Under the pieces are notes generated by a model. That model was not told the origin of the DNA. It was given only the letters and a program-made list of their open reading frames with translations, and did not search any database. Below, piece after piece: positions 3,015-16,565 of a DNA stretch of 64,000 nucleotides (its first letter is position 1; each line of letters starts with the position of its first letter). Source of the stretch: Pseudomonadota bacterium (lineage in GTDB: Bacteria; Pseudomonadota; Alphaproteobacteria; UBA1280; RI-95); NCBI GenBank assembly GCA_016125375.1, contig WGLU01000001.1, positions 186,001-250,000 on the forward strand. The letters are read 5' to 3'. A program made the translations under genes and the position numbers.

Positions 3015-4361
3015 CTAGCTGTCATGAACCCACTTCATCCGGACACATGGTGTGCGGAGGATGGTGGTGCTCATCCGGCGGGTGCGCTTGGACATGGTGT
3101 ACATGTTGTTGTCTGTCCAAGCGCTGACCTTGCGCCATACGAGGCGGATTTCTCCCTCAGGCAGCTGGGTATCCTCGATAACAGGTACGCCACTGCGTGT
3201 ATAGCTGAGCAGGGCAATCAGGCCGCCGATAAGGAACAGGCTGCCAATCACGGCAGGCAGGCCCATGTAGCCTAAATGGTCCAGCATATAGCCGTTCAGC
3301 AAGGGGCCGGTCATACTGCCTGCGTCATAGCAGATGTTCAGCATGGTTGTTGCCAGCATCAGCTCGGCAGCGCGGAAGCGCTCGCCCAGCAATGCAGAGC
3401 CGGTAACGCCCATGACCGAGCACAAGGCACCCAGCACAAAAACAGCGGTCATCAGGCCTATGCCAGTCCAAGCAGAGGCTGCCAGCAGCAGTGCTGTTAC
3501 AACGCCAACACCCATCGTGCCCAGGGTGAACAGGTTCTTGTCCGACCGGTCCATGACCATTGCCAGTGGATATTGCATCACCAGACCGCCCGCAATAAAC
3601 CATGTCATCAGCATCAGTGCATTTTGCTCACTCATGCCTGCGCCAAGGCCGAACATGCCCAGAAAATCCAGTACACCTTCGGTTGCGTAGCCGGCAACAA
3701 AGCAGACTGCCCACAGGAACGTATGGCCTTTGATAATACCGCGCAGGTTGCCGAAAGTTGGCGGTGTGATGCTCAAATCGGGCAGACGTGTGGTCAAAAT
3801 CGGCAGAGCAGACAGGATGGATGCACCAACGCAGATGGCAAAACCGCTGTTGCCTACACCTGTTTGGGCAATGGCAAGCGGGCCAAGGGCATAGCCACCC
3901 ATACTGGCGAGAAAGTACAACGTAAAGACACGGCTGAGCTCATTCTCCCGTGTGCGGGCATACAGCCAGAGGTCAAAAATAACATACACCGGCCCAACCA
4001 GCAGGCCGCGCAGAGCTTCGTGGCTCATCCACAGAGCATATGCGTCCGGATTGATGGCAGGCAGTGCCAACGCCACTGTGATAATGGCAAAGGCAGCCGG
4101 AATGAACGTATTCAGGCCAACATAGCGGATAATGTACGGACCGCCGAACAGGGCGACGATACGGCCGATTACTGCACACGTAAACAACATGCCAATATCG
4201 CTGGCAGACCAGCCAAGCGCTTCACCCTGCAAGGTGACGGCAGGCGCAATGCAGCCGAAGGCGGCCATTAAAAAGAAGGCGGAAACAATGACGGGCCACG
4301 TGCCGACCAACGATGCTGGCAGCAAAGCCGTAGTCCGATTTTTTACAATATGCCAAAACAT
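3015..4361 (-). CDS. MFS transporter
   Basis: A ~448-residue inner-membrane protein of the major facilitator superfamily with about 12 hydrophobic helices. Typical features are a repeated two-bundle layout, a cytoplasmic loop with MVMDRSDKN after the middle, and many Gly-rich helices. The C-terminal ~60 residues are polar and cytoplasmic. The substrate is not predictable. I use the ATG at 4361; a GTG at 4370 is possible and neither has a clear Shine-Dalgarno. It is a single gene with its own terminator, preceded by a 300-bp hairpin-rich leader region. Confidence 0.85.
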   Translation of the reverse strand: MFWHIVKNRTTALLPASLVGTWPVIVSAFFLMAAFGCIAPAVTLQGEALGWSASDIGMLFTCAVIGRIVALFGGPYIIRYVGLNTFIPAAFAIITVALALPAINPDAYALWMSHEALRGLLVGPVYVIFDLWLYARTRENELSRVFTLYFLASMGGYALGPLAIAQTGVGNSGFAICVGASILSALPILTTRLPDLSITPPTFGNLRGIIKGHTFLWAVCFVAGYATEGVLDFLGMFGLGAGMSEQNALMLMTWFIAGGLVMQYPLAMVMDRSDKNLFTLGTMGVGVVTALLLAASAWTGIGLMTAVFVLGALCSVMGVTGSALLGERFRAAELMLATTMLNICYDAGSMTGPLLNGYMLDHLGYMGLPAVIGSLFLIGGLIALLSYTRSGVPVIEDTQLPEGEIRLVWRKVSAWTDNNMYTMSKRTRRMSTTILRTPCVRMKWVHDS

Positions 4362-4671
4362 GGCGAACACACATAATCTAGTTTATTTGATTTCAAGACA
4401 AAGCCGCGCGCAGGTACCTGATGGTCAGGCCGCGGTGCGGTAGAAGACTGTTAAGGCTAAGGGACCCTAATCTTCGGGGGAAACGCAGTGGGGAGGCTCG
4501 CTAGCGCGCACGAAAACAGGGGGGAGGCAGGCTCCCATCCGGTCTTTCAGGCTGTACAGCAGCCCGTATGTTACTTGCGCTAACATGGTCGATCACTCGA
4601 TTTTTTTAGAATGCTTGGTACACATCTCTTATGCACCAGCGCCTTAAAAATGACACTGACAGCCACTTTTG
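4362..4671. other. Gene-free hairpin-rich interval
   Basis: No gene fits here. The part around 4434-4570 is GC-rich and self-complementary, with GGGAG-gcagg-CTCCC near 4532-4546 and GGCTG-tacag-CAGCC near 4550-4564. It would be a ~200-nt leader for the MFS gene on the minus strand, or a small RNA. I could not match it to SRP RNA (no GGAAGGAAGCAGC), RNase P, or a riboswitch class I know. Confidence 0.4.
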
Positions 4672-5613
4672 TCAAGGGTGCAATGCAATATCAGCCCAGA
4701 TGGACAAATGGTCGCTCCATTTAACGAAGACAAAACCGCTGTCGGATACTGTTGCTGTTTGTGGCACAAGGATATGGTCGATGGGCACGGCCGGGATGAC
4801 GGAAAGCCAGGATGACATCCAGTTGTGAGCGCGCTTAAGGCCCTGTTTTGACTGAATGTTTTTGAAAGCATCATCCCACTGTACGGTATTGAAGTCCCCC
4901 ATGACGATAAGGGGGTGCTCGGGCTTGAACAGGCTGATGGCACTGAGGGTCCGGTCGCGCCATTCGCGCAGCCCCGGAGAGATGGGTGGTAACGGGTGTG
5001 CGGCTACTAAAGTGACATATCCCTGAGGGAGTAGAATGTCATAAACCGGTGATGTATCGTCTATCGTCAATCGGGGACGTATGGGGTAGCGGCTCAGCAC
5101 GGTGGTCGGGTGACTCATCAAACCGCGGACTGTATGGCGATAGGGCAGGGCATCACCGAGGGCTTGCTCGGCGGCGTGCTCCATATCCGGCGTACTTTCC
5201 AGAATGACAGCGATATCAGGGGTCACAGTGGTCAATTGGTGCACTTTATCAGCCACATGTGCAGGTGTTTCGGACATGGCAGCATTGATGTTCATAACCA
5301 TCAGCCGCAAGGTATTGGGCGCTGGTGGCGCCGCTGGGACGTGCTGGCGTAATAGCGCCGGCACAGTAAACAGGCAGAAAAACAAGGTGGCGGGCAGGAA
5401 CAGCCCTGTCAGGCCCTTGCGGACCCACTTGCCACGGACTTTGTGTAGGAGGACCAACATGATGAGGGCAAACAGAAAATCGGTCCAGATGACGTAACGG
5501 ATGCTGTCCAGCAGCAGGAAGAAGTGCCATTCGGTCATAAAGGGGGTCACAATCTGGACGACGGTGAACACGGTCAGTAACATACTGAGTTGGAAGGGCA
5601 GGGTACGCAGCAT
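4672..5613 (-). CDS. Membrane-anchored endonuclease/exonuclease/phosphatase family protein
   Basis: A 313-residue protein. About three hydrophobic segments fill the first ~95 residues, followed by an EEP (DNase I/exonuclease III fold) domain. Family motifs are MVMNINAAM, VILESTP (metal-binding Glu), VMGDFNTV, and IDHILVP followed by WSDHLSI (catalytic His). The layout is like E. coli YafD, and the active domain probably faces the periplasm. ATG at 5613 is preceded by AAGGCG. It lies downstream of a related gene (5676-6674), with a terminator in the 62-bp gap. The substrate (nucleic acid, phospholipid or phosphoinositide-like) cannot be told from sequence. Confidence 0.82.
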   Translation of the reverse strand: MLRTLPFQLSMLLTVFTVVQIVTPFMTEWHFFLLLDSIRYVIWTDFLFALIMLVLLHKVRGKWVRKGLTGLFLPATLFFCLFTVPALLRQHVPAAPPAPNTLRLMVMNINAAMSETPAHVADKVHQLTTVTPDIAVILESTPDMEHAAEQALGDALPYRHTVRGLMSHPTTVLSRYPIRPRLTIDDTSPVYDILLPQGYVTLVAAHPLPPISPGLREWRDRTLSAISLFKPEHPLIVMGDFNTVQWDDAFKNIQSKQGLKRAHNWMSSWLSVIPAVPIDHILVPQTATVSDSGFVFVKWSDHLSIWADIALHP

Positions 5614-5640
5614 GAGGACGCCTTAATCTTGTTATCCCAT

Positions 5641-5670
5641 AAAAAATGCCACCCCGTTGACGGGGTGGCA
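5641..5670 (-). terminator. Rho-independent terminator between the two EEP genes
   Basis: On the minus strand TGCCACCCCG-tcaa-CGGGGTGGCA is followed by six T. It ends the 5676-6674 gene and sits 28 bp before the start of the next EEP gene, so that gene depends on read-through or on a promoter hidden in the hairpin region. Confidence 0.85.
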
Positions 5671-5675
5671 AGTCG

Positions 5676-6674
5676 CTAATGAGGCATCAGACGGACATCC
5701 GCCACAACGGCCAGATGGTCGGTTGCGGGAACGTACCGGACATCGCTTGCCAGCACCTGCGTGTTCTCGGGCACCAGAACGTAGTCCAGCGGTGCAACCG
5801 GAACCACCCGCCATTGCCGCCCGTAAAAGGCGACCCTGTAGGCAGGGAAGGTCGGTTGCGGCAGGCCGGCCATTTTCAGGCCGAAGCGCGTCATCAGGTT
5901 TTGGATGTTACGCTGCCAGGGCACGGTATTGAAGTCCCCGGTAATGACGACCGGCAGGTCGGTTTCGACCTTGCTGAGGCTGTCCAGCGCCGCATTGCGG
6001 GCCAGATGCCGTGCCGGTGTCAGGGGTGAGTAGGGGTGCACCTGCACGAGGCGGAACGTGCCGTTCGGCCCGTCCACATCGTAATGGACAATGCGCCCTT
6101 CATCCTGAATCAGCACCCTGCGGACAGGGTATTTGCTGAGCAGGATCATGCTGTAATCGCCGTAGTTGCTGGCAACCTGCGTGACGATCTGGTTGGGATA
6201 CTGGCGGGCGAGCCGCGGCAGATATTTGTCCCAATCCGGGCGCGCCTCGACGATGCTCATCACATCGGGGTTCGTTTCCAGAATGAACTTGACCTTCGGT
6301 CCCAGATTGTCGTTGGGATGAAGGGCGTTCAGGCTGGCAATCCGCATTACGTCCGCCTCGATCGGGTGCGGCGGAAAGGATGCAGATTCAGGCTGCTGGA
6401 CGCGCAGATAGATAATGGCGCCCAACACGGCAGACAGCAAAGCCACAACGGGCCAGCGCCAGCGGTCGGTCTTGTTGTTGTAGATCAGCAGCATCAGCAG
6501 GCCGCGCCACGGAAACCACAACAGGAACAAGCCGCCCAGCGTTATGAAGGTGAGTGGCAGGGCAAGGCTGTGGATGAGCATGAGCGCATACACATGCTGA
6601 AATGCCGCTGCCACAATCTGGACCCCGCCCAGCAGGCAAAGCCCGAGGGTGAGCAGATAACGGGTCAGCGCCAT
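5676..6674 (-). CDS. Membrane-anchored endonuclease/exonuclease/phosphatase family protein
   Basis: A 332-residue paralogue of the neighbouring gene: about three N-terminal hydrophobic segments, then an EEP domain with RIASLNALH, MSIVEARPDW (Glu ligand), VVITGDFNTVPW, PLDYVLVPE and ATDHLAVVADV. The ATG at 6674 has GGAGG five bases upstream and is a better start than the ATG at 6686. It is divergent from the ClpP-like gene at 6972. It probably acts at the outer face of the inner membrane; the substrate is unknown. Confidence 0.85.
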   Translation of the reverse strand: MALTRYLLTLGLCLLGGVQIVAAAFQHVYALMLIHSLALPLTFITLGGLFLLWFPWRGLLMLLIYNNKTDRWRWPVVALLSAVLGAIIYLRVQQPESASFPPHPIEADVMRIASLNALHPNDNLGPKVKFILETNPDVMSIVEARPDWDKYLPRLARQYPNQIVTQVASNYGDYSMILLSKYPVRRVLIQDEGRIVHYDVDGPNGTFRLVQVHPYSPLTPARHLARNAALDSLSKVETDLPVVITGDFNTVPWQRNIQNLMTRFGLKMAGLPQPTFPAYRVAFYGRQWRVVPVAPLDYVLVPENTQVLASDVRYVPATDHLAVVADVRLMPH

Positions 6675-6971
6675 AAGCGCCTCCATGGGGTTAGAGCTTC
6701 AGGATATGCGAAACGTGAAAAGATACAGCAAACTGTACGCAGAAAAGGTGCGCGCAGACGGTGTTATTGTCAAGTGCGATGGGGAGCGGAAAGCACTCTA
6801 AATGGCAGTGCAGCATAAAAAAATTGCATGCGTATACATTTTTTTGTGGCAAGGGCCTTTACGCCTCGGTATCATCCACCTCTGAACGTTGTTCAATCTC
6901 TTTTCACTTTTCTTCAAAGCGTGTTTTCACACTTAGTCTCCTTTTTTCCCCGAGTTTTCGGAGGCAAAACA
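6675..6971. other. Divergent intergenic leader of the ClpP-like gene
   Basis: 297 bp without a gene, between divergent coding regions. The right half (about 6850-6960) is strikingly pyrimidine-rich on the plus strand and would be a long 5' UTR. A/T runs flank TGCATGCGTATACA near 6815-6847. I see no convincing sigma70 or sigma32 promoter pair. Confidence 0.4.
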
Positions 6972-8261
6972 ATGACCGACAATCTCAAGACCCTGACCCA
7001 CGAAGAGGCCCTCGAGGGCTTCCGCGCGGTCACCCGTAACCGCACGCTGGAGCGTGTTGGCCACTTCGTCGAGGAACTCAAGGCCGCTGAGGCCTCCGGC
7101 GCGCCCAACGGTGCCTACCGGATCGTGGTTCCCGACAACGCCCATGGCGGCCGTGGTTTCGACCTCGCGTCCATCATGTTCAAGAACCGCTTCCTCTACC
7201 TGGAAGGCCCGGTGACGCAGGAAGCCGTGTGGGAGCTGCAGAAGCAGATCCACTACCTCTGCTCCTCGGCCGTTCTGTGGCAGAAGGGCAAGTTCGGCGT
7301 GCCGAAGACGGACGAAGTCGGCCGTGAGCGCATCCGCCGCATCACGATCTACATCGACTCGCCTGGCGGCTATGTCGACTGGGGCCTGGAGCTCCACGAC
7401 TTCATCCGCGAAGCCGAGGACATCACCCAGGAGCCGGTCGTCGTCATCATGAAGACGCAGGCTGCCTCGATGGGTTCGCTGCTCATGCAGTCGGGCACCA
7501 AGTTCATGCGGCTGGCGTTCCCGCGCTCGCTGATGATGATCCATGGTCTGTCCTACGGCAACCAGGGCAAGATCGAGCAGCACATGGACGGAGCCTCCGG
7601 CTCGGTCGTGCGCGCTGCCCAGCTCTACCAGATCTACGTCGAGAAGATGCTGGAGGCCCACATCGGCGCCGGCCGCCTGGTCGACAACGGTGACGGCACC
7701 CTGACCAACCCGGTCACGGGCTCCAAGGCCACCGTCGACGAGCGCAAGCGCGAGCTCCTGAAGTGGCTCAAGACCCACATGGAGAACCGCGACACCTTCC
7801 TGAAGGTGTCCGAGTGCCTCAAGCACGGCCTCATCGACTACGTCATCTTCAACGAAGACGAGCAGATGGCCTACTACGACCATGTCTACTGGTACCTCGG
7901 CCTGAAGGAACCGGCCCGCGAGGAAGCCACGCAGGAACTGCGCGGTCACTTCGACGAGGACGGCGTCTTCATCGGCGACTTCGTGTGGTCCAAGGAGCCC
8001 CTCATCAGCAAGGCGCTGGTCTTCATCGCCCAGCAGGCTGCCGGTAAGGACGAAAAGGCTGACAAGGCCCAGAAGCTGCTCGCCAAGAGCGTGGACGATC
8101 GTACGGCGTCCCTCAAGGCCATCCGTGCGTTGCAGGCCCGCAACCTGGCGAAGGCCATGGAGAAGGAAGCCGGCTACAGCTGGATTCTGGACGACCTGGT
8201 CGCCGACTACGCTGCGCAGTTGAAGAAGCACAACAGCGCTGACGGCCCGGCCATCAGCTAA
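6972..8261 (+). CDS. Enlarged ClpP-like serine peptidase
   Basis: A 429-residue protein whose middle (about residues 70-295) is a ClpP/crotonase-fold serine peptidase. The oxyanion strand is IYIDSPGGY, the nucleophile S166 lies in KTQAASMGSLL, the base H191 in RSLMMIHG, and D274 in NRDTFLKVSECLKHGLID aligns with the ClpP catalytic Asp. The triad is therefore complete. Unlike ClpP (212 residues at 14524), it has a ~70-residue N-terminal extension, a ~13-residue insert near residue 105, a ~35-residue insert before D274 and a ~135-residue Lys/Ala-rich C-terminal region. The ATG at 6972 follows GGAGG; a longer reading upstream has no support. Codons end in C or G far more than in neighbouring genes, which suggests high expression or transfer. 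It is a single gene with its own terminator. Whether it pairs with a Clp ATPase is unknown. Confidence 0.85.
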   Translation: MTDNLKTLTHEEALEGFRAVTRNRTLERVGHFVEELKAAEASGAPNGAYRIVVPDNAHGGRGFDLASIMFKNRFLYLEGPVTQEAVWELQKQIHYLCSSAVLWQKGKFGVPKTDEVGRERIRRITIYIDSPGGYVDWGLELHDFIREAEDITQEPVVVIMKTQAASMGSLLMQSGTKFMRLAFPRSLMMIHGLSYGNQGKIEQHMDGASGSVVRAAQLYQIYVEKMLEAHIGAGRLVDNGDGTLTNPVTGSKATVDERKRELLKWLKTHMENRDTFLKVSECLKHGLIDYVIFNEDEQMAYYDHVYWYLGLKEPAREEATQELRGHFDEDGVFIGDFVWSKEPLISKALVFIAQQAAGKDEKADKAQKLLAKSVDDRTASLKAIRALQARNLAKAMEKEAGYSWILDDLVADYAAQLKKHNSADGPAIS

Positions 8262-8270
8262 TCGAACGGA

Positions 8271-8302
8271 AGTGCCGCCCCTTGTGGGCGGCACTTTTTT
8301 TG
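8271..8302 (+). terminator. Rho-independent terminator of the ClpP-like gene
   Basis: AGTGCCGCCC-cttgt-GGGCGGCACT followed by a T run. Confidence 0.9.
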
Positions 8303-8338
8303 TGCAAACTAGACGGATAACAAATTCAAAAACTGGTT

Positions 8339-8563
8339 ATGCAAATGTTCTATAAAGCATTTTTACGGCACCCTGCCAGCGTTGGTAAGTCCTACGCAGG
8401 GCACCTCTGGGGCGCATGGCGCTATGGCTGGCAACTGCAAAAGGCAGCGTGCAGTGCCTTTGTGCATGGCCTGTTGCCTGCTGTTTGCGAAACAACAGCC
8501 AGCGATGCTGTCGAAAACCTTTACAAGAAAGGGCAGGCAAAAGATGCGCAGAAAAATACTTAG
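8339..8563 (+). CDS. DUF6356-like small protein
   Basis: A 74-residue protein (MFYKAFLRHPASVGKSYAGH... WRYGWQLQKAACSAFVHGLLPAV). The pattern of an F-x2-HP-x-SV-x-ESY-like start, a central hydrophobic segment and a VHGLLPA stretch is what I remember of the alphaproteobacterial DUF6356 family; the match is from memory. The function of that family is not known to me. Start is the ATG at 8339, or the ATG at 8345 two codons later. The 3' end overlaps the start of the next gene by 20 bp in a different frame, suggesting translational coupling. Confidence 0.65.
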   Translation: MQMFYKAFLRHPASVGKSYAGHLWGAWRYGWQLQKAACSAFVHGLLPAVCETTASDAVENLYKKGQAKDAQKNT

Positions 8564-8846
8564 CCTTTTTATCCCTGTGGTGCTGATGCTGCCAGTCGGT
8601 GCCCACGCAGTTTGTATTGAGCCTGATGCCAAGCCGCCTGTTTGTACGGAGCAGAAACCGGACAAGCGTTTCGAGACCGAGGAAGAGTTCACAAAATGCC
8701 GGGAAGAGGTGGATGCCTATACATCATCCCTGTCGGATTGGGTTGTGTGTGTGATGGGCGAGGCCAAGGACCGTGCTGCTGCGGCCTTTACGCAGTTCCG
8801 ATGCAAAACCCGTGCAGATACAGTGTGTTTTGACGAAAAACCCTAA
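8544..8846 (+). CDS. Small secreted six-cysteine protein
   Basis: A 100-residue protein with a clear signal peptide (KILSLFIPVVLMLPVGAHA, cleavage near residue 22). The mature part is ~78 residues with six Cys, consistent with disulfides in the periplasm. The ATG at 8544 is preceded by GGGCAGG. In-frame codons extend upstream to 8382 but would put the signal peptide in the middle, so they are rejected. No family recognised. The stop codon overlaps that of the convergent kinase gene by 2 bp. Confidence 0.65.
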   Translation: MRRKILSLFIPVVLMLPVGAHAVCIEPDAKPPVCTEQKPDKRFETEEEFTKCREEVDAYTSSLSDWVVCVMGEAKDRAAAAFTQFRCKTRADTVCFDEKP

Positions 8847-9724
8847 GGGTGCAGGGCGGCGAGGGCCTCCACCTCGTCAAGCGCGGGAATGCTGGCCATG
8901 GTGCCCAGACGCTGGACAGCCAGCGCAGATGCGGCGCGGGCAAATTTAAAGTGTTCGGCAAATTTGGCCTCCGGCTTGCGAAGGTATGAAAAGACGTACG
9001 CACCGTGGAAGATGTCCCCGGCACCTGTGGAATCGACCACTTTTCCCTTCTCCAGCGGAATTGCCGACATTTGTTGGAATTGGCCATCCTCAACAAAGAC
9101 GAGCCCTTTGTCGCCCAATGTGACGGCTGGTACTTTGACGCCTTTCTCGCTCAGCCAGTCCACCATTTGGCGGGGAGATAGGGAAAACTGCTCGCAAAAC
9201 CGCTCGGAAACAACCGCCACATCAATGTAGTCCAGCAGGTGCTCAATGTCCTGACGGCGGCTGCCGCCGTCAAGCGACGTCATAATACCTTTCTGACGGC
9301 AGAGGCGTGCGTAATGGATGGCTGCATCCATCTGGTGGCCGTCAAGGTGCAGGGCACGCAGGCCTGTGATGTCCAGTTGGGGGATGGCATCCAGATAATG
9401 CGTATCCCGGCAGCGCAGGATGGAGCGTTGGCCATTGTTCGGGATGACGAGTGAAAGCGCGGTACGGCCAACCTGACGTGGGTGCAAGGTGACGGGATGC
9501 TTTTCACAGACTGCCAGCGTGTAATCGCTCAGGGAGTCCTTGGCGACAGAGGTCAGAAGATCCGTCTGATGGCCAAGAATGGCATTGGTAAAAGCCGCGA
9601 TAACGGCATTGCCGCCCAGACCAAAGGCGTAATCGTCGGCAACGGCCTTTTCATCACCCGTGGGGATGTGGTCTGCAACGATTGTGACATCGATATAGGT
9701 ATGGCCGATAAACAGGGAATCCAT
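8843..9724 (-). CDS. PfkB-family carbohydrate kinase
   Basis: A 293-residue cytosolic kinase of the ribokinase/PfkB family, which phosphorylates a sugar or nucleoside hydroxyl with ATP. The N-terminal part has the substrate Gly-rich segment FGLGGNAVIAA (PfkB signature 1 region). The C-terminal signature 2 is VDSTGAGDIFHGAYV, with catalytic Asp D237. The exact substrate is not clear. The gene is divergent from a nucleoside deoxyribosyltransferase, which makes ribose, deoxyribose or a nucleoside plausible. ATG at 9724, with AAAGG upstream. The gene ends tail-to-tail with 8544-8846. Confidence 0.88.
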   Translation of the reverse strand: MDSLFIGHTYIDVTIVADHIPTGDEKAVADDYAFGLGGNAVIAAFTNAILGHQTDLLTSVAKDSLSDYTLAVCEKHPVTLHPRQVGRTALSLVIPNNGQRSILRCRDTHYLDAIPQLDITGLRALHLDGHQMDAAIHYARLCRQKGIMTSLDGGSRRQDIEHLLDYIDVAVVSERFCEQFSLSPRQMVDWLSEKGVKVPAVTLGDKGLVFVEDGQFQQMSAIPLEKGKVVDSTGAGDIFHGAYVFSYLRKPEAKFAEHFKFARAASALAVQRLGTMASIPALDEVEALAALHP

Positions 9725-9737
9725 CTTGTGCCTTTGG

Positions 9738-9769
9738 TTATTTTGCCCAACAGCTTTTTATTTTGCCCA
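9738..9769 (+). repeat. Two 12-bp direct repeats at 20-bp period
   Basis: TTATTTTGCCCA occurs exactly at 9738-9749 and 9758-9769, in the 94-bp divergent region between the PfkB kinase and the deoxyribosyltransferase. A period of about two helical turns on one DNA face is typical of a regulator binding site. Confidence 0.6.
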
Positions 9770-9818
9770 TTTGTGCGGTACATTCAAGAAGGAGTTTCCA
9801 CAAAAAGGATTTACACCC

Positions 9819-10406
9819 ATGACAGGACGCGCACCCCGTATCTATTTGGCCGGCCCGGATATCTTCCGTGAGGATGCTGCCGAGTTTGCCAACTGGCAAA
9901 AAGCAGTCTGCCGGGATTACGGGCTTGAACCGCTTCACCCGATGGATAACAACTTCAAGCCGGATTTTAAATCGCTCGACGGCGCACGGGATATTTACCA
10001 CGCCGACGTTGGCCAGATGCTCCGGTGTGATGTCATTTGCGCGAATATGGGCATGTTTCGGGGGCCGGAACCCGACAGCGGCACATGCTTCGAAGTGGGT
10101 TTTATTGCAGGCCTGAATGCCGCACGCGAACGCTTTGGTGCTCAGGTACCGTTCCGTCCCTTGTACGGTTATGTTGAAGAAGCACCTACATACCCGGAAG
10201 CCATCCGCATGTGCGGACTGGAAGACCCGGAGAATCCCGGTTATGACGTACAGGGCTGCCATATCACGCCGTGGGAGGTGTTGACGGTGAACCTGATGAT
10301 GGAAATCCCCATGCATGAAACAGGCGCCTTTATTACAACCGGTTTTGAAGATTGTATCGCCCAGATTGCCGCCGACTGGAAGGCCGGCAAGTTTACGGTG
10401 GCTTAA
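9819..10406 (+). CDS. Nucleoside 2-deoxyribosyltransferase
   Basis: A 195-residue enzyme that moves the deoxyribose of a deoxynucleoside to another base, or hydrolyses related nucleotides. Motifs are IYLAGPDIF (phosphate/sugar loop, residues 8-16) and EPDSGTCFEVGF, with the family DSGT at 86-89 and the likely nucleophile E92. The ATG at 9819 has AAGGA upstream; a longer in-frame reading overlaps the divergent promoter region and is not used. Four bases separate it from the phosphatase gene at 10410, so the two are probably co-transcribed. It likely acts in nucleoside salvage together with the divergent PfkB kinase. Confidence 0.88.
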   Translation: MTGRAPRIYLAGPDIFREDAAEFANWQKAVCRDYGLEPLHPMDNNFKPDFKSLDGARDIYHADVGQMLRCDVICANMGMFRGPEPDSGTCFEVGFIAGLNAARERFGAQVPFRPLYGYVEEAPTYPEAIRMCGLEDPENPGYDVQGCHITPWEVLTVNLMMEIPMHETGAFITTGFEDCIAQIAADWKAGKFTVA

Positions 10407-10409
10407 GCT

Positions 10410-10949
10410 ATGGCGCTGAAAGCCATTATTTTTGACCGCGACGGTACGCTGAACGAAGAAGGGCCGACGGAAGGCGGTTATGTGACCAGGCCCGGTGACC
10501 TTGTCCTTATCGACGGTGTTGCCGACGTATTGCGCGATCTGCGTGGGCGCGGAATAAAGCCATTCGTCTACACACAACAGTCCTGCGTGGGGAAAGGTCT
10601 CTTGGATGAACAGGGACTTGCAGCCATCCACGCACGCATGCAGGACCTGTTGGGCAAGGATGCCCGGATAGAGGCGTTCTATTACTGTCCACATGTGGCA
10701 GCGGACCGCTGTATGTGCCGCAAGCCCATGCCCGGTATGTTGTTCCGCCTTATGACTGACCACAAACTGCGCGGGGATGAGGTGGTTGTTATCGGTGACA
10801 GCCTGCGTGACGGTCAGGCCGCACACGCACTGGGACTGCGGTTTGCCTATGTGCGTACCGGTAAGGGGAAGGTGCTGGAGCAAAGCGCGGAAGCACCGGA
10901 TGTGCCGTTTTACGATACGCTCGCCGAGGCGGTAAAAAGCTTCCTTTAA
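10410..10949 (+). CDS. HAD-IIIA hydrolase, GmhB/histidinol-phosphatase type
   Basis: A 179-residue phosphatase. HAD motif I is FDRDGTLN (D9, D11), motif II TQQS, the motif III lysine is in CRKPMPG, and motif IV is VVVIGDSLRDG. The zinc-binding loop CPHVAADRCMC is the mark of the GmhB/HisB-N subgroup, which dephosphorylates D-glycero-manno-heptose bisphosphate or histidinol phosphate. There is no heptose or histidine gene nearby; its partner is a deoxyribosyltransferase, so the substrate is open. Confidence 0.85.
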   Translation: MALKAIIFDRDGTLNEEGPTEGGYVTRPGDLVLIDGVADVLRDLRGRGIKPFVYTQQSCVGKGLLDEQGLAAIHARMQDLLGKDARIEAFYYCPHVAADRCMCRKPMPGMLFRLMTDHKLRGDEVVVIGDSLRDGQAAHALGLRFAYVRTGKGKVLEQSAEAPDVPFYDTLAEAVKSFL

Positions 10950-10966
10950 ATGGTTTAAAAATCTCC

Positions 10967-10995
10967 TTGAAAAGAGGGGGCGTTGTGCGTATGTT
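10967..10995 (+). promoter_or_regulatory. Promoter of the tRNA-Arg/His/Leu cluster
   Basis: TTGAAA, 17 bp, TATGTT. The expected start point is ~45 bp upstream of tRNA-Arg, and a terminator follows tRNA-Leu. Confidence 0.6.
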
Positions 10996-11051
10996 GTGGG
11001 TCGCAGCAGCGCGGGTGGATACCCGTATGTGTGCACCAGGCAAAGCGCGTT

Positions 11052-11128
11052 GCGCCCGTAGCTCAGTTGGATAGAGCACCTGCCTTCTAAGCAGGCGGTC
11101 GCGCGTTCGAATCGTGCCGGGCGCGCCA
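11052..11128 (+). tRNA. tRNA-Arg(TCT)
   Basis: A 77-nt cloverleaf. Acceptor GCGCCCG/CGGGCGC, discriminator G and encoded CCA. The anticodon loop CTTCTAA gives TCT. Confidence 0.96.
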
Positions 11129-11156
11129 GCGTTGTTGCGAACCGTAGCCGTGTTAT

Positions 11157-11233
11157 GGCGGATGTAGCTCAGTTGGTAGAGCACATGGTTGTGGTCCATG
11201 TGGTCGTGGGTTCGAGTCCCATCATTCGCCCCA
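11157..11233 (+). tRNA. tRNA-His(GTG)
   Basis: Cloverleaf with anticodon GTG, acceptor GCGGATG/CATTCGC and encoded CCA. Coordinates include the encoded G-1 at 11157 opposite discriminator C73, the identity mark of tRNA-His. Confidence 0.96.
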
Positions 11234-11287
11234 TCGGTTTACGGCAGCTCAAAGGATTCTTTCCAGTCTGTTCCCCCTGTTTTCTAT

Positions 11288-11372
11288 GCGGATGTGGCGG
11301 AATTGGCAGACGCACTGGATTTAGGTTCCAGCGGGGTAACCCGTGGGGGTTCAAGTCCCTCCATCCGCACCA
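11288..11372 (+). tRNA. tRNA-Leu(TAG)
   Basis: An 85-nt class II tRNA with a long variable arm. Acceptor GCGGATG/CATCCGC, anticodon TAG, CCA encoded. Confidence 0.96.
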
Positions 11373-11378
11373 TAGAAA

Positions 11379-11404
11379 AGACCCGCTTGGCGGGTCCTTT
11401 TTTA
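11379..11404 (+). terminator. Terminator of the tRNA cluster
   Basis: GACCCGC-ttg-GCGGGTC followed by CTTTTTTT, directly after tRNA-Leu. Confidence 0.88.
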
Positions 11405-11423
11405 TAACAGTACTAAAGATAAA

Positions 11424-11454
11424 GAAAAACCCCCGCAGCTTGCGCTGCGGGGGC
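11424..11454 (-). terminator. Terminator of the SPFH gene
   Basis: On the minus strand CCCCCGCAGC-gcaa-GCTGCGGGGG is followed by TTTTTC. Confidence 0.88.
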
Positions 11455-11477
11455 TGCCTTACGGCACGCTTGGGGGG

Positions 11478-12437
11478 TTACTTGCCCGCCGGGACGGAGA
11501 TACCCGCATTACCGCCGGTGACGACGGTGATGTTGGGGTTACCCGCCTTGACGGCCGATTCGAACGCTTCCGCATTCGTCTTGGCCGCATTGGCGTTGAT
11601 GATGGCGACCATGTCCGCAATGGACACGTCCTTGGGCAGGGCGCCCATCATCTTGGCGATACCCAGACCTTCGTTTTCCTGACGCAACGCCGCCTGCTGG
11701 GCGATGTCGGTCAGGGTCTTCTGGCGACGCAGTTCGACGTCGGCAGCCTTTTCTTCGGCGATGGCGTTCAGAACGCGCTCGTTCGCAGGTTCGAACTTAC
11801 GCACCTGAGCGTTCGGGAAGATGAAGGCGGCTTTCGCCTCTTCCGCGGTGAAGCCGGCATTGATCAGGTCGGCGCTCACGATACGGAGGAGGTTGGCCGG
11901 AATGTCGGCAGCCAACTTGCCACGCCCTTCTTCGCTGGTGGCCTGCTCCCAGTTCTGGGAAGAGACCGCGTCACGAATAGCGGAACGTGCCGAGTTGTTG
12001 AGCATGGTCACGTATTCGGTGCCATACTTCTGCTTGATCTTCCAGGCCATCTGCGGCTGCAGGATGTAGGGGACAGTCACGTCCGCCACCATCCGGATCT
12101 TATCCGCAGAAAGCGCTTCCGCCGTGGTCTGCCCCGTGAAGGAGAAGTCCTGACGACGGGTCTCCATCTCCGTGGTGTTGACCATCGGGTTGATGAAGTG
12201 CAGACCTTCGCTGTAGTAGCCGGACTGCTGCTCGCCGAACCAGTCGGTGACGACCACGCGGCCGGAGTTCACCTGGGTGGCCGACGAGAAGATGGCGATA
12301 CCCAGTCCGACAACGGTCAGAGCGATCTGGCCGTACATACGGAAGGGCAAGTCGCCACTTTCCTTGTTGCCTTTCGGCAGGAGGAACGACGCGCCGAACA
12401 GCGCCAGAATGATGACAACGAAAACGATGAAGCCCAT
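11478..12437 (-). CDS. SPFH/prohibitin-family membrane protein
   Basis: A 319-residue protein. One or two hydrophobic segments lie in the first ~57 residues (VFVVIILALFGASFLL; IALTVVGLGIAIFSSA). They are followed by a prohibitin-type SPFH domain (about 60-230) and an Ala/Glu-rich coiled-coil region, consistent with ring-forming scaffolds at the inner membrane. The start ATG at 12437 has a perfect AGGAGG seven bases upstream. Codons are more G/C-ending than in the neighbours, as in the ClpP-like gene at 6972. In other bacteria SPFH proteins such as HflK/HflC or QmcA associate with FtsH; a link to FtsH here is only an analogy. Confidence 0.85.
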   Translation of the reverse strand: MGFIVFVVIILALFGASFLLPKGNKESGDLPFRMYGQIALTVVGLGIAIFSSATQVNSGRVVVTDWFGEQQSGYYSEGLHFINPMVNTTEMETRRQDFSFTGQTTAEALSADKIRMVADVTVPYILQPQMAWKIKQKYGTEYVTMLNNSARSAIRDAVSSQNWEQATSEEGRGKLAADIPANLLRIVSADLINAGFTAEEAKAAFIFPNAQVRKFEPANERVLNAIAEEKAADVELRRQKTLTDIAQQAALRQENEGLGIAKMMGALPKDVSIADMVAIINANAAKTNAEAFESAVKAGNPNITVVTGGNAGISVPAGK

Positions 12438-12602
12438 GGCTTCCTCCTATGGTCAGTGGTGGATGAGAGTTACTGTGGTTGGTAACTGCGCAATGGCGTC
12501 GTCTGGCCCGCGAATGCGGACACGAACGTGAAAAGAAAAACAGATGAGCCTATTGCGTATCTGCTTATAGAGGGAGCCGTTAGAGAGTTTCTGACGTATT
12601 GT

Positions 12603-12965
12603 TTAATCAAGACGTTGCTGGCAGCGCACGTTTTTACTCATGGGGTCCGGTTGCCAGTAAACCTCGTTACCTTTGCCGCGCAAGGTGGATACGCCGTTGC
12701 TGTACTTGAAGCCGGAGGCGCTTACTTGTATGGGCAGGTTGATCAGACCATCGACATTATCAAAGGGAACAGCCTTTGGTCCCGCGATGGTCACGTAATC
12801 CATCTCGCCGCTCACATAGGCAACCTTGAGTACGCTGCCGTTGGTGCAGCTATAAGTAACGTGTGGCGCATTGCGGTTATCGGCATACTTTCCGCAGGGG
12901 CACATCGTTGTCGTACAGGCGCTGAGCAAAAGCAGGGCAGGGGCGGCAAAAAAGGCGCGGTTCAT
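12603..12965 (-). CDS. MliC-like lipoprotein
   Basis: A 120-residue lipoprotein: signal peptide with lipobox LLSAC (Cys at about 16), then a domain VTYSCTNGSVLKVAYV...GFKYSNGVSTLRGKGNEVYW. This fits the membrane-bound inhibitor of C-type lysozyme (MliC/PliC) family, including its SxxG-like and YxCxxG patterns. It probably protects the cell wall from lysozyme. I chose the ATG at 12965 (GGATATCC upstream) over 12977. It lies upstream of the SPFH gene on the same strand, with a 165-bp gap, and is divergent from tig. Confidence 0.72.
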   Translation of the reverse strand: MNRAFFAAPALLLLSACTTTMCPCGKYADNRNAPHVTYSCTNGSVLKVAYVSGEMDYVTIAGPKAVPFDNVDGLINLPIQVSASGFKYSNGVSTLRGKGNEVYWQPDPMSKNVRCQQRLD

Positions 12966-13099
12966 AAGGATATCCATTTGTTTTTATAGGTCCACATCAG
13001 GTTACCTGCCTTGCGCAGGTCATGCAACTGCCATGGCTGAATGTACAAAAAAGCCAGCAAATACGGGCTTTCGTATACAATAATTCGTGTTGTCTTTGT

Positions 13100-13127
13100 T
13101 TGCATTGGGCGGATTTGCTGCTATTAT
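13100..13127 (+). promoter_or_regulatory. Candidate tig promoter
   Basis: TTGCAT, 16 bp, TATTAT, about 60 bp upstream of the trigger factor start. Confidence 0.45.
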
Positions 13128-13184
13128 CGCAGCTCATGGATTCTATCAAGTAACGCTAATAATTACGTATTAAGGACATCTCTT

Positions 13185-14501
13185 ATGCAGATTGTTGTTC
13201 AGAAAAAAGGTGATTTGGGCCGCGAAATGGTGGTCACCATCCCCGCTTCGGAAGTAGAAAAAATGATGACCGAGCGTCTGGAAGAAGTGCGTGTTAACGT
13301 CAGTTTGCCAGGCTTCCGTCCGGGCAAAGCGCCGTTGGAAGTTGTCCGCAAGCGTTACGCCGAGAAGGTTGGTATGGACGTGCAGCGCGACCTGATTGCC
13401 GAGACCATGCCTAAAGCTTTTGATAAAGAAAATGTACGTCCTGCCGGCCAGCCGAATGTAAACTTTGGGACGCTGTCTGAAGGTAAGGATTATCAGTACA
13501 CCATCGCTTTCGACATTATGCCGGAAGTGGCGCCCAAGAAATACGAAGGGTTGAAGCTCGTTCGTCATACCACAACGGTTGATGACAAACTGGTGGAAAA
13601 GTCCATTAAGGAACTGGCCAAAACACGCCGCATGTTCAAAAAAGTCGACGGTGCTGCCAAAAAGGGTAATATCACCAAAATTACAGCCAAGGGATTTGGT
13701 AAAGATGGCAAAGCCATCCCAGGCGCAGAAGTGACCGAGTTTCCGCTGGAACTGGGTTCAGGTCAGTTTATTCCGGGTTTTGAAGACGGGCTGATTGGCA
13801 AGAAAGCGGGCGACAAGGCAACGCTTGAGCTGACTTTCCCGAAAGATTATCACGCCAAGGAACTGCAAGGTGTTAAAGCCAAGTTTGAAGTTGATGTGCT
13901 GGAAGTGCAGTCTGCCGAAGAACCGAAGCTGGATGATGAGTTTGCAAAATCGCTGGGTCTGACCGATCTGGCTGACCTGAAAGCCAAACTGAAAGAACGT
14001 CTGGAAGCGGATGTGGCAACTGCCAGCGAACAACGCCTCAAGCGCGAATTGTTTGATTCCCTGGACAAGGACAATCAGTTCGAAATCCCCGAGAGCATGC
14101 TGAAAGCAGAGTTTGAAACTATCTGGCGTGCCCTGATGGAAGACATGCACCGCCGTGGTGTGACCTTTGGCATGATGGGCAAGACAGAAGACGAAGTCCG
14201 CGCCGAACATCGTGAACTGGCCGCACGCCGTGTGCGTTTGGGTCTGCTGCTGGCAGAGATTGGCCGCAAGCATGGTGTTGAGGTGAAAGAGGACGAAGTT
14301 GCTGCTGAGATCGAGAAGATTGCCTCTGCTTACGGCCCGAGCGCCGATAAAGTGCGTCAATACTTCAAACAGCCGCAGGCCCGTAACGAAATTATTGGCC
14401 CGCTGTACGAGAAGAAAGTTTGCGACTGGATTCTGTCCACCGGTAAACTGACTGATAAGACAATTGATGCTGACGAACTGTTGGCTGAGATTGCTGGCTA
14501 A
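13185..14501 (+). CDS. tig: Trigger factor
   Basis: A 438-residue ribosome-bound chaperone and peptidyl-prolyl isomerase that meets nascent chains at the exit tunnel. The N-terminal ribosome-binding domain holds the loop GFRPGKAP (about 43-50). The FKBP-type domain is around 150-240 (GQFIPGFEDGLIGKKAGD), and the helical C-terminal substrate domain follows. The ATG at 13185 has AAGGA upstream; an upstream in-frame reading to 13041 is not supported. It heads the tig-clpP-clpX-lon block, which puts folding and degradation of new proteins together. The C-terminus is shorter in acidic tail than some relatives, but the length is normal. Confidence 0.96.
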   Translation: MQIVVQKKGDLGREMVVTIPASEVEKMMTERLEEVRVNVSLPGFRPGKAPLEVVRKRYAEKVGMDVQRDLIAETMPKAFDKENVRPAGQPNVNFGTLSEGKDYQYTIAFDIMPEVAPKKYEGLKLVRHTTTVDDKLVEKSIKELAKTRRMFKKVDGAAKKGNITKITAKGFGKDGKAIPGAEVTEFPLELGSGQFIPGFEDGLIGKKAGDKATLELTFPKDYHAKELQGVKAKFEVDVLEVQSAEEPKLDDEFAKSLGLTDLADLKAKLKERLEADVATASEQRLKRELFDSLDKDNQFEIPESMLKAEFETIWRALMEDMHRRGVTFGMMGKTEDEVRAEHRELAARRVRLGLLLAEIGRKHGVEVKEDEVAAEIEKIASAYGPSADKVRQYFKQPQARNEIIGPLYEKKVCDWILSTGKLTDKTIDADELLAEIAG

Positions 14502-14523
14502 CCGTTAAAATCAGGGGTTCGTT

Positions 14524-15162
14524 ATGGATAACACAACAAAAAACACCATTCTGAACAATTTGGTCCCCATGGTTGTGGAGCAATCCCCCCGTGGCGAGCG
14601 TGCGTATGATATTTACTCCCGCTTGCTGAAGGAGCGGATTATCTTCCTGACGGGCCCCGTTCATGACGATATGGCAAACCTAATCGTCGCACAGCTGCTG
14701 TTCCTGGAGTCGGAGAATCCTGACAAGGATATCTCCATTTACATCAACTCTCCCGGCGGTTCTGTAACGGCTGGCATGGCTATCTACGATACGATGCAGT
14801 TCATCCGCCCGGATGTCAGCACCATTTGTATCGGTCAGGCTGCAAGCATGGGCGCGTTTCTGTTGGCAGCAGGGACAAAGGGCAAGCGCTACGCGCTGGC
14901 AAATGCACGTGTGATGATTCACCAGCCTTTGGGTGGTTTCCAAGGTCAGGCAAGCGACATTGAGATCCATGCCAAAGAAATCCTGCAATTGAAAGAGCGC
15001 CTGAATAAAATGCTGGCCCACCACACGGGCAAGCCGCTGGCGACTATCAGCAAGGATACCGACCGTGATTACTTCATGGACGCCGATACCGCCAAGAAAT
15101 ACGGTATTGTGGATACTGTTCTGGTGGAACGCCCGGAAGCCAAAAAGGGCTCGGCTAAATAG
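14524..15162 (+). CDS. clpP: ATP-dependent Clp protease proteolytic subunit
   Basis: A 212-residue serine peptidase that forms the tetradecameric degradation chamber for ClpX or ClpA. Catalytic triad: S108 in [10 protein letters not shown]133 in [10 protein letters not shown] and D182 in RDYFMDA. A short propeptide is likely at the N-terminus. It lies 22 bp after tig and 137 bp before clpX. Length and motifs are standard, in contrast to the enlarged ClpP-like protein at 6972. Confidence 0.97.
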
Positions 15163-15227
15163 GCTCTTGTAAGGCACGCGTCTTGCACGTAACCCTATAA
15201 AGCCAAGGGGTATCGGTGCATCACGCG

Positions 15228-15256
15228 TTGACTTGGCAGTTTTTAGAGCTGATACT
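15228..15256 (+). promoter_or_regulatory. Candidate clpX promoter
   Basis: TTGACT, 17 bp, GATACT in the clpP-clpX gap. It would allow clpX and lon to be expressed apart from tig-clpP. Confidence 0.5.
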
Positions 15257-15299
15257 TAATAATAAGAGAAATATCTTGTACGGGGGCGTTTGAGAAACG

Positions 15300-16565
15300 A
15301 TGGCACGTTCTTCCGATAGTGGATCCAGTAACACGCTTTACTGCTCGTTCTGCGGTAAAAGCCAGCATGAAGTCCGTAAACTGATTGCAGGCCCAACCGT
15401 CTTTATTTGCGACGAGTGTGTTGGCCTTTGCATGGACATCATCCGTGAGGAGCAGCGTACGCCTGTTTCCCACGAACGTTCAGGTGTGCCAGCACCTAAA
15501 GAAATTAAATCCATTCTGGACGACTACGTCATTGGTCAGGAGCGCGCAAAACGTATCCTGTCTGTGGCTGTACATAACCACTACAAACGTCTTGAGCATA
15601 TGACCCACGAATCTGAGGTCGAACTGCAAAAGTCGAACATTCTGCTGGTTGGTCCTACCGGTTGCGGTAAAACCCTGCTGGCACGCACACTGGCCCGTAC
15701 GCTGGATGTGCCGTTCACCATTGCCGACGCGACAACGCTGACCGAGGCTGGTTATGTAGGTGAGGACGTTGAGAACATCATCCTCAAACTGTTGCAGTCG
15801 GCCGACTATAACGTCGAGCGTGCACAGCGTGGTATCGTCTATATCGACGAGGTGGATAAAATTTCCCGTAAGTCTGACAACCCATCTATTACACGTGACG
15901 TGTCGGGTGAGGGTGTTCAGCAAGCCTTGCTGAAAATTATTGAAGGTACGGTTGCTTCCGTTCCGCCACAAGGTGGTCGCAAACACCCGCAGCAGGAGTT
16001 TTTGCAAGTAGATACAGGGAACATCCTGTTTGTCTGCGGCGGCGCTTTTGCGGGTCTGGGTAAGATCATCGCCCAGCGTCAGCGCAAGTCCAGCATGGGC
16101 TTTAGTGCCGAAGTAGAAGGACCGGATGATCGCGGTACGGGTGAACTTTTTGCCCTGTGCGAACCGGAAGATCTGCTCAAGTTCGGCCTGATTCCAGAGT
16201 TTGTGGGCCGTCTGCCTGTGATTGCAACGCTGGAAGATCTGGATGAACCTGCCCTGATTCAGATTCTGACCGAGCCGAAGAACGCGCTCGTGAAGCAGTA
16301 TCAGGAACTGTTCGCTATGGAAAACGTAAAGCTGACCTTTGCGGACGAGGCGTTGACGGCAATTGCCCGTCAGGCTATCGAGCGCAAAACCGGCGCACGT
16401 GGTCTGCGTGCGATTATGGAGAATATCCTGCTGGATGTGATGTTTGACGTCCCGTCCATGGAGGGTGTGGAAGAGGTTGTAATTAACAAAGACGTGGTAG
16501 ACGGGCGTACCGAGCCGCTGCTGATTTACAGCGACAAGAAAAAGCCCGAGGCTGACGCCAGCTGA
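15300..16565 (+). CDS. clpX: Clp protease ATP-binding subunit ClpX
   Basis: A 421-residue AAA+ unfoldase that feeds tagged substrates to ClpP. The N-terminal zinc-binding domain has C15, C18, C37 and C40. Walker A is GPTGCGKT, Walker [10 protein letters not shown], and the pore loop is GYVGEDVE. The sensor-2 region [10 protein letters not shown] lies near the C-terminus. The ClpP-contact loop is [12 protein letters not shown] or close to it (IGF-type loop not seen exactly). ATG at 15300; lon follows after 50 bp. Confidence 0.97.

Follow-up and report, generated by a model that had tools for sequence, protein, structure and literature searches.

The peptidase ClpP is closely bound up with its ATPases, and bacteria that carry more than one set of these components have been described. 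Myxococcus xanthus harbors two ClpPs and three ClpXs, with a tig-clpP-clpX operon and extra copies dispersed over the genome (PMC11423568). Two further systems concern the translation of selected gene sets. Pyrimidine-rich stretches 5' of the Shine-Dalgarno (SD) sequence are binding sites of S1, and in E. coli stress mRNAs are selected through acetylation of S1 (PMC9437053). In mycobacteria, DosR stands for a codon-biased translation of stress genes (PMC5114619). Here, we describe a locus of a small alphaproteobacterium (assembly GCA_016125375.1, the source genome) that encodes a 429-aa enlarged ClpP-like serine peptidase, which we term ClpP2. All coordinates without a locus prefix refer to the window, the 64,000-nucleotide stretch of contig WGLU01000001.1 (positions 186,001 to 250,000) that was analyzed. 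Our best reading is that ClpP2 is a further form of ClpP within an accessory proteostasis set that is marked by its codons and leaders. To the fuller proposal we assign a probability of roughly 0.45: ClpP2 would act as the peptidase within an accessory proteostasis set under common regulation, would have a remodelled docking face and would probably be served by a second ClpX.

The clpP2 gene occupies positions 6972..8261 on the forward strand. A start at the ATG at 6972 is backed by the Shine-Dalgarno motif GGAGG (6960..6964, +) 7 nt upstream, the strong ribosome site of an earlier note on this DNA. The same note had pointed to a pyrimidine-rich leader, and indeed the segment 5' of the ribosome-binding site (6880..6959, +) scores 0.80 for pyrimidines, where the genome averages 0.60; its predicted fold is unremarkable (z -1.28). 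Such a leader is present also at the ortholog in the metagenome-assembled genome UBA6503. The strong terminator holds as a structure, a hairpin with a U tract at 8262..8305 (+; -24.4 kcal/mol, z -4.45), but a simple consensus terminator scan reports nothing at this position. The window further contains a canonical clpP (14524..15162, +; 212 aa, ordinary codons) about 6.3 kb downstream, put at 7 kb before, and a canonical clpX with an MGF loop (15300..16565, +). Together with the preceding trigger-factor gene they form the order tig-clpP-clpX (13041-16565), and hence clpP2 is a second, additional ClpP, about 29% identical to the canonical ClpP of the source genome. This genome encodes two ClpPs and three ClpX-like genes; besides, there is one short ClpP match in a 304-aa ORF. 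Divergent from clpP2 lies an Exo_endo_phos gene (5676..6686, -) in tandem with a paralog (4672..5613, -). Both clpP2 copies combine a polypyrimidine leader, a strong SD, a terminator hairpin and a divergent Exo_endo_phos neighbor, and among the 6 genomes of the order, the two with clpP2 are also the only ones in which matches to this neighbor were found. An SPFH/Band_7 gene identified by Pfam (11478..12437, -) shows the same A-avoiding codon habit as clpP2 (A3 0.017). Located 3 kb from clpP2, it has an ordinary leader score of 0.63.

ClpP2 matches the Pfam family CLP_protease (PF00574) with 74.3 bits (E 1.5e-20), above the cut-off of 20.2. All eight NCBIfam ClpP models listed match it below their own cut-offs (the best with 70.8 against 249 bits), and the canonical clpP equivalog TIGR00493 reaches 61.4 bits against a cut-off of 308.6. 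The two other families that had been named as candidates for comparison also stay below threshold, with 24.1 of 155.5 bits for the SppA_dom equivalog (SppA / S49) and 35 of 120 bits for the phage head-maturation protease NF045542. An AlphaFold model of the single chain, built from a 16-row alignment, is confident in a core of about residues 65-310 and of low confidence at both ends (mean pLDDT 65.8). This core (7164..7901, +) has the ClpP fold, as seen in the model and its structural matches. The best matches listed by Foldseek against the PDB are ClpPs (E 2e-15, TM by target about 0.8-0.9), VIA comparison with 3ktg_A gave Z 21.8 and an rmsd of 1.9 over 185 residues, with Z around 21-22 among the matches, and viral proteins match the model less well than the ClpPs of the PDB. 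The triad proposed earlier can be retained: S166 (codon 7467-7469), H191 (7542-7544) and D274 (7791-7793) align with the triad of viral ClpPs and of the canonical ClpP encoded in the window, and the UBA6503 ortholog has all three residues as well. ClpP2 thus keeps the fold and the triad residues of ClpP. It probably also forms a ClpP-type chamber; the oligomer and its activity are what we infer from these features.

The protein is twice the size of ClpP (429 versus 212 aa), as had been noted before. By alignment it gains an N-terminal extension of about 48 aa, which precedes the axial N-terminal segment, inserts near residues 104-119 and 228-268, and a C-terminal tail of about 120 aa that starts after residue 310 or so. 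The long insert sits in the handle helix (inter-ring) region. All of these additions had been recognized, and a further insert of 4 aa near 148-151 joins them. The ortholog has a 25-aa N-terminal extension and lacks the first insert, so the enlargement is conserved only in part. The 4-aa insert lies beside the docking pocket, at its rim, and belongs to a pattern, RxAExITxEPV, that is common to both ClpP2s. At the pocket position aligned to E. coli M92, ClpP2 has K161 and the ortholog Q, while 13 of 14 canonical rows are hydrophobic there. The remaining pocket positions that were examined are either hydrophobic, as are Y127, I159, L181, F183 and I292, or ordinary. The suspicion that the ATPase-docking face is changed gains support from the K161/Q exchange and the conserved rim insert. 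Our best reading of the alignments is a ClpP remodelled at its ATPase-docking face, with an extended N-terminus on the pore side, a changed pocket, a rim insert and a long C-terminal tail.

These changes lend themselves to two other interpretations. ClpP2 might work without any Clp ATPase, as a self-compartmentalised peptidase whose N- and C-terminal extensions gate the pore and which degrades peptides or unfolded protein. The altered pocket (K161/Q and the rim insert), long extensions on the ATPase-facing side and the absence of an adjacent ClpX or ClpA gene are in line with this idea, whereas the other pocket positions are still hydrophobic. We regard an ATPase-free ClpP2 as unlikely and return to it with the second ClpX. 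Alternatively, ClpP2 and the canonical ClpP could assemble into mixed rings or mixed double rings, in which ClpP2 would tune the canonical enzyme. Both proteins have the same fold, and bacteria with two ClpPs can form mixed assemblies (PMC11423568). Such mixing is improbable given the low identity of about 29% to the canonical copy, the long insert in the inter-ring handle region, and the equivalent of R170, which is kept in ClpP2 but is D in the ortholog.

Relatives of ClpP2 are rare. The one ortholog found, in UBA6503 (contig DJLZ01000005.1), has 368 aa and 41% overall identity, and NCBI taxonomy places that genome only among unclassified Pseudomonadota. Two of 6 genomes of the order carry clpP2, and the same two (the source genome and UBA6503) are the carriers among 385 genomes of the class; a third class-wide match, in G345 (E 3.9e-16), groups with ordinary ClpPs in the tree. 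A scan of the genome contigs returned no relative with the ClpP2 protein alone and UBA6503 only with a two-row ClpP2 alignment, viral contigs gave two loci with ordinary ClpP-like matches, and a search of the phylum with the ClpP2 alignment brought up mainly ordinary ClpPs. In none of these searches was a close characterised homolog found, and open-licence PMC text yielded no paper on UBA6503, on an ATPase-free ClpP-like protein, or on a codon dialect combined with a pyrimidine leader. In a tree of 38 rows, the bootstrap of which had not settled, the two ClpP2s form one clade (support 100/99) outside the 36 other ClpPs, canonical and phage. The branch that leads to the clade is long, at 7.2 changes per column, which makes its placement unsure.

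Descent of ClpP2 from a phage, by domestication of a ClpP-like or head-maturation protease, is very improbable in our judgement. PHROG head-maturation protease profiles do match it (68.6 bits), and jumbo phages carry ClpP, ClpX and MoxR-vWA (PMC7824862). However, Pfam and the PDB match cellular ClpP at least as well, the phage matches listed are 24-28% identical, and in the tree the two ClpP2s do not fall among the phage ClpPs that were sampled. The neighbors, scanned from 3276 to 16562, comprise Exo_endo_phos, PfkB, nucleoside deoxyribosyltransferase, HAD, Band_7, trigger factor, clpP and clpX, the rest being without a Pfam match, and no head or packaging genes (capsid, terminase) were recognized among them.

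The codon use of clpP2 deviates as the earlier note had described, with strongly G/C-ending codons. With a GC3 of 0.892, clpP2 holds rank 3 of 396 sampled genes, whose mean is 0.652 (sd 0.083), and the ortholog reaches 0.698 against a mean of 0.434 (rank 2 of 215). The ranks for the source genome refer to about a fifth of it, read with a simple gene caller from hand-picked stretches. Most of these were spaced at even steps, and the window with its flank and the ribosomal operon were added; the loci L166, L167 and L170, which were reached via ClpX2 or VWA searches, are left out of the ranks. The genes sampled from UBA6503 lie nearly all on one contig and take in the surroundings of ClpP2 as well as the ribosomal operon. 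The signature common to both copies is a near-absence of A-ending codons except GAA, with an A3 of 0.003 in clpP2 (rank 2 of 393) and 0.016 in the ortholog (rank 1 of 210), and with AAG for Lys and CAG for Gln at 100% in both. In UBA6503 the genes with this habit are a discrete class, as 12 of 210 sampled genes have an A3 below 0.10 and the next gene follows at 0.164, while in the source genome they are the tail of a continuum and not a discrete group.

High expression, which the earlier note had suggested from the leader, the ribosome site and the terminator, is not supported by the codons. In both genomes the genes for ribosomal proteins make free use of A-ending codons, and a bias for high expression was therefore rejected as the sole cause of the habit. 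In UBA6503 these genes use CTA at 0.40, TCA at 0.46, ACA at 0.46, CCA at 0.50 and AAA at 0.63, and the ortholog has 0.00 for all five. The CAI of clpP2 relative to ribosomal proteins is 0.70, compared to their own mean of 0.76. Avoidance of a trinucleotide, such as an endoribonuclease site, was discarded as well, since out-of-frame trinucleotides are near the expectation from synonymous shuffles, and the extremes listed stay within |z| 2.5.

For the codons, not for the ClpP itself, it has to be considered that the deviation merely reflects acquisition by horizontal transfer, the donor being of high GC content. High-GC alphaproteobacteria avoid A-ending codons anyway (the control G017 has GC3 0.82 and A3 0.06), ClpP2 occurs in no other of the 385 class genomes searched, and in UBA6503 the class has a higher GC12 than other genes (0.528 versus 0.494, p 2e-4), so that some of its genes may be of foreign origin. 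In the source genome GC12 is not raised (0.528 versus 0.521). The ortholog also differs in GC3 (0.89 versus 0.70), the UBA6503 copy keeps host-like use of GGT, CGT and GAA, and the habit is retained in both genomes despite unlike backgrounds (0.89 against a mean of 0.65, 0.70 against 0.43). An arrangement of two class genes described below, ClpX2 and FtsH2, is common to two families, which implies that they are old in the order, and the controls lack pyrimidine leaders. Transfer as the whole explanation of the codons appears rather doubtful on this evidence.

The leaders are a second mark of the same genes. The genes in the top 5% of GC3 and those in the top 5% of leader score overlap in 8 of 11 cases in UBA6503 (Fisher p 2e-9) and in 10 of 20 in the source genome (1e-9). 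In a 35-nt window, leaders with a score of at least 0.8 precede 17 of 324 genes of the source genome, 11 of 169 of UBA6503 and 5 of 43 of G003, a further genome of the order, and none of 265 genes (0/101, 0/85 and 0/79) in three control alphaproteobacteria processed alike. From the AT-rich G003 four stretches were used, all chosen through search hits; its four class orthologs are without the codon habit and keep the leaders (4/4, against 1/39 of the other genes), and leader and codons can thus part. Pyrimidine leaders of class genes can pair with the purine-rich SD, and the predicted SD accessibility is low, with unpaired probabilities of 0.14 versus 0.51 for other genes in UBA6503 and 0.23 versus 0.39 in the source genome. 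An RNA thermometer or otherwise structured SD was rejected: shuffled leaders give equal SD pairing, and hence the pairing is an effect of base composition. By analogy, the leaders in common suggest an S1-dependent initiation, and the codons in common suggest a codon-biased translation of the kind reported for DosR.

What had escaped the earlier note is that these codon and leader features mark a whole gene class, including a second ClpX (ClpX2), an FtsH homolog (FtsH2) and other proteases. Among the 12 class genes of UBA6503 are ClpP2, ClpX2, FtsH2, a trypsin-like protease, a MoxR-type ATPase, ORFans and a putative VWA protein. The last, encoded directly downstream of clpP2, was assigned as VWA/MIDAS by eye from its sequence, and Pfam gives no VWA match. 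In the source genome the A3 values are 0.003 for ClpX2, 0.016 for FtsH2, 0.011 for MoxR (matched by eye) and 0.048 for VWA. When 20 strongly A-avoiding genes sampled from the source genome, clpP2 excluded, were searched with Pfam, 9 belonged to protease, chaperone or membrane quality control, a grouping drawn up after the list was seen, 7 had no match and 4 were others. The nine are NfeD (below the curated cut-off), SPFH (2), Bax1-I, S9 peptidase, trypsin-like, M16 (2) and DnaJ. Of 20 random genes with ordinary A3 none had a quality-control domain, and 3 lacked a Pfam match. The codon and leader class may accordingly be a separately controlled second set in which many genes serve protein quality control, as the sequences suggest.

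Several members of the class deserve a description of their own. The zinc motif of FtsH2 contains one extra residue in all three genomes that have it beside ClpX2 (HEILGH, HEAAGH and HEILGH versus HEAGH; L063:2986-5220, L166:11169-13448 and L168:10269-12437), and its protease may for this reason be altered or dead. A third ClpX-like gene, on contig C8 of the source genome (L170:6085-7350, A3 0.016), has an apparent C4 zinc-finger segment; no IGF-type motif was detected in it by the pattern used. The genes for the MoxR ATPase and the putative VWA protein adjoin each other and have polypyrimidine leaders in the source genome (L167:6640-10110) and in G003 (L169:128-2249). On contig C9 of the source genome an SPFH and NfeD cluster was found (L050:3627-6860), with an NfeD-like gene that is the most A-avoiding of the sample (A3 0.000). 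A phage origin of the class was considered and dropped: ClpX2 is only 32-35% identical in the best 8 of 79 phage records, MoxR has 4 records and VWA 0.

ClpX2 was found in 3 of 385 class genomes at E <= 1e-50, namely the source genome, G003 and UBA6503, and in all three clpX2 is kept beside ftsH2 in divergent orientation. It is not adjacent to clpP2, and in the source genome the two genes lie on separate contigs. The IGF-type loop of ClpX2 is absent in both genomes with ClpP2 and is kept (SIGFG) in G003, where ClpP2 was not found, though the ClpX2, FtsH2, MoxR and VWA genes are there. ClpX2 is the likeliest unfoldase for ClpP2, we infer from the sequences, because it belongs to the same class in both ClpP2 genomes and has lost its loop just there. 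The loop pattern over three genomes is a hint only of a link between the two proteins. Loop loss could equally mean that ClpX2 docks no ClpP at all, which would favor the ATPase-free ClpP2 set out above; the presence of a ClpX paralog of equal codon and leader class in both genomes argues against it.

In the preferred reading, with ClpX2 as partner, the lineage-specific set with polypyrimidine leaders, strong ribosome sites and near-absent A-ending codons, in which proteases and chaperone-type ATPases are numerous (ClpX2, FtsH2, MoxR/VWA, SPFH/NfeD, trypsin-like, M16 and S9), would be translated jointly under a particular condition, for example stress or slow growth. ClpX2 would then feed proteins to ClpP2, which would degrade them. 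A ClpP that keeps its triad and alters its docking face shows one way in which a second Clp machine could be kept separate from the existing one. One may go further and speculate that the order possesses a second proteostasis machine in parallel to the first (ClpP2, ClpX2, an FtsH with HEXXXH, MoxR/VWA and membrane-protease partners) and operates it as one translational regulon, with polypyrimidine leaders and a private codon dialect that is roughly the reverse of that of the ribosomal proteins, made when growth-type translation is shut down and with a re-invented ClpP2-ClpX2 interface. We consider this bolder version unlikely as a whole. If the class is indeed a translational regulon, leader type, synonymous-codon choice and a protein quality control set would be linked in one bacterium, and regulation by codons would be directly testable by recoding.

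How ClpP2 relates to described systems can be summarized as follows. With the canonical ClpP (S14, PF00574) it shares the fold, the SPGG and ASMGS motifs and the positions of Ser, His and Asp, but it differs in its doubled size, the altered docking pocket, the extended N- and C-termini and NCBIfam scores below the cut-offs. Like the phage ClpP-like and head-maturation proteases (PHROG 94, NF045542) it has a ClpP domain within a longer protein; unlike them it stays below the NCBIfam cut-off and lies in a chromosomal context in which no phage neighbors were recognized. Myxococcus xanthus (PMC11423568) is similar in that the source genome, too, has tig-clpP-clpX plus dispersed extra ClpP and ClpX genes, with two ClpPs and three ClpX-like genes. 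The two ClpPs there, however, share 80% identity, while ClpP2 is enlarged and about 29% identical to its canonical paralog. With the DosR and S1 systems our locus has in common a functional gene group with shared synonymous-codon bias and the pyrimidine-rich regions 5' of the SD to which S1 binds. In contrast to those cases, both signals coincide here in one class that is rich in proteostasis genes and that may be regulated as a unit.
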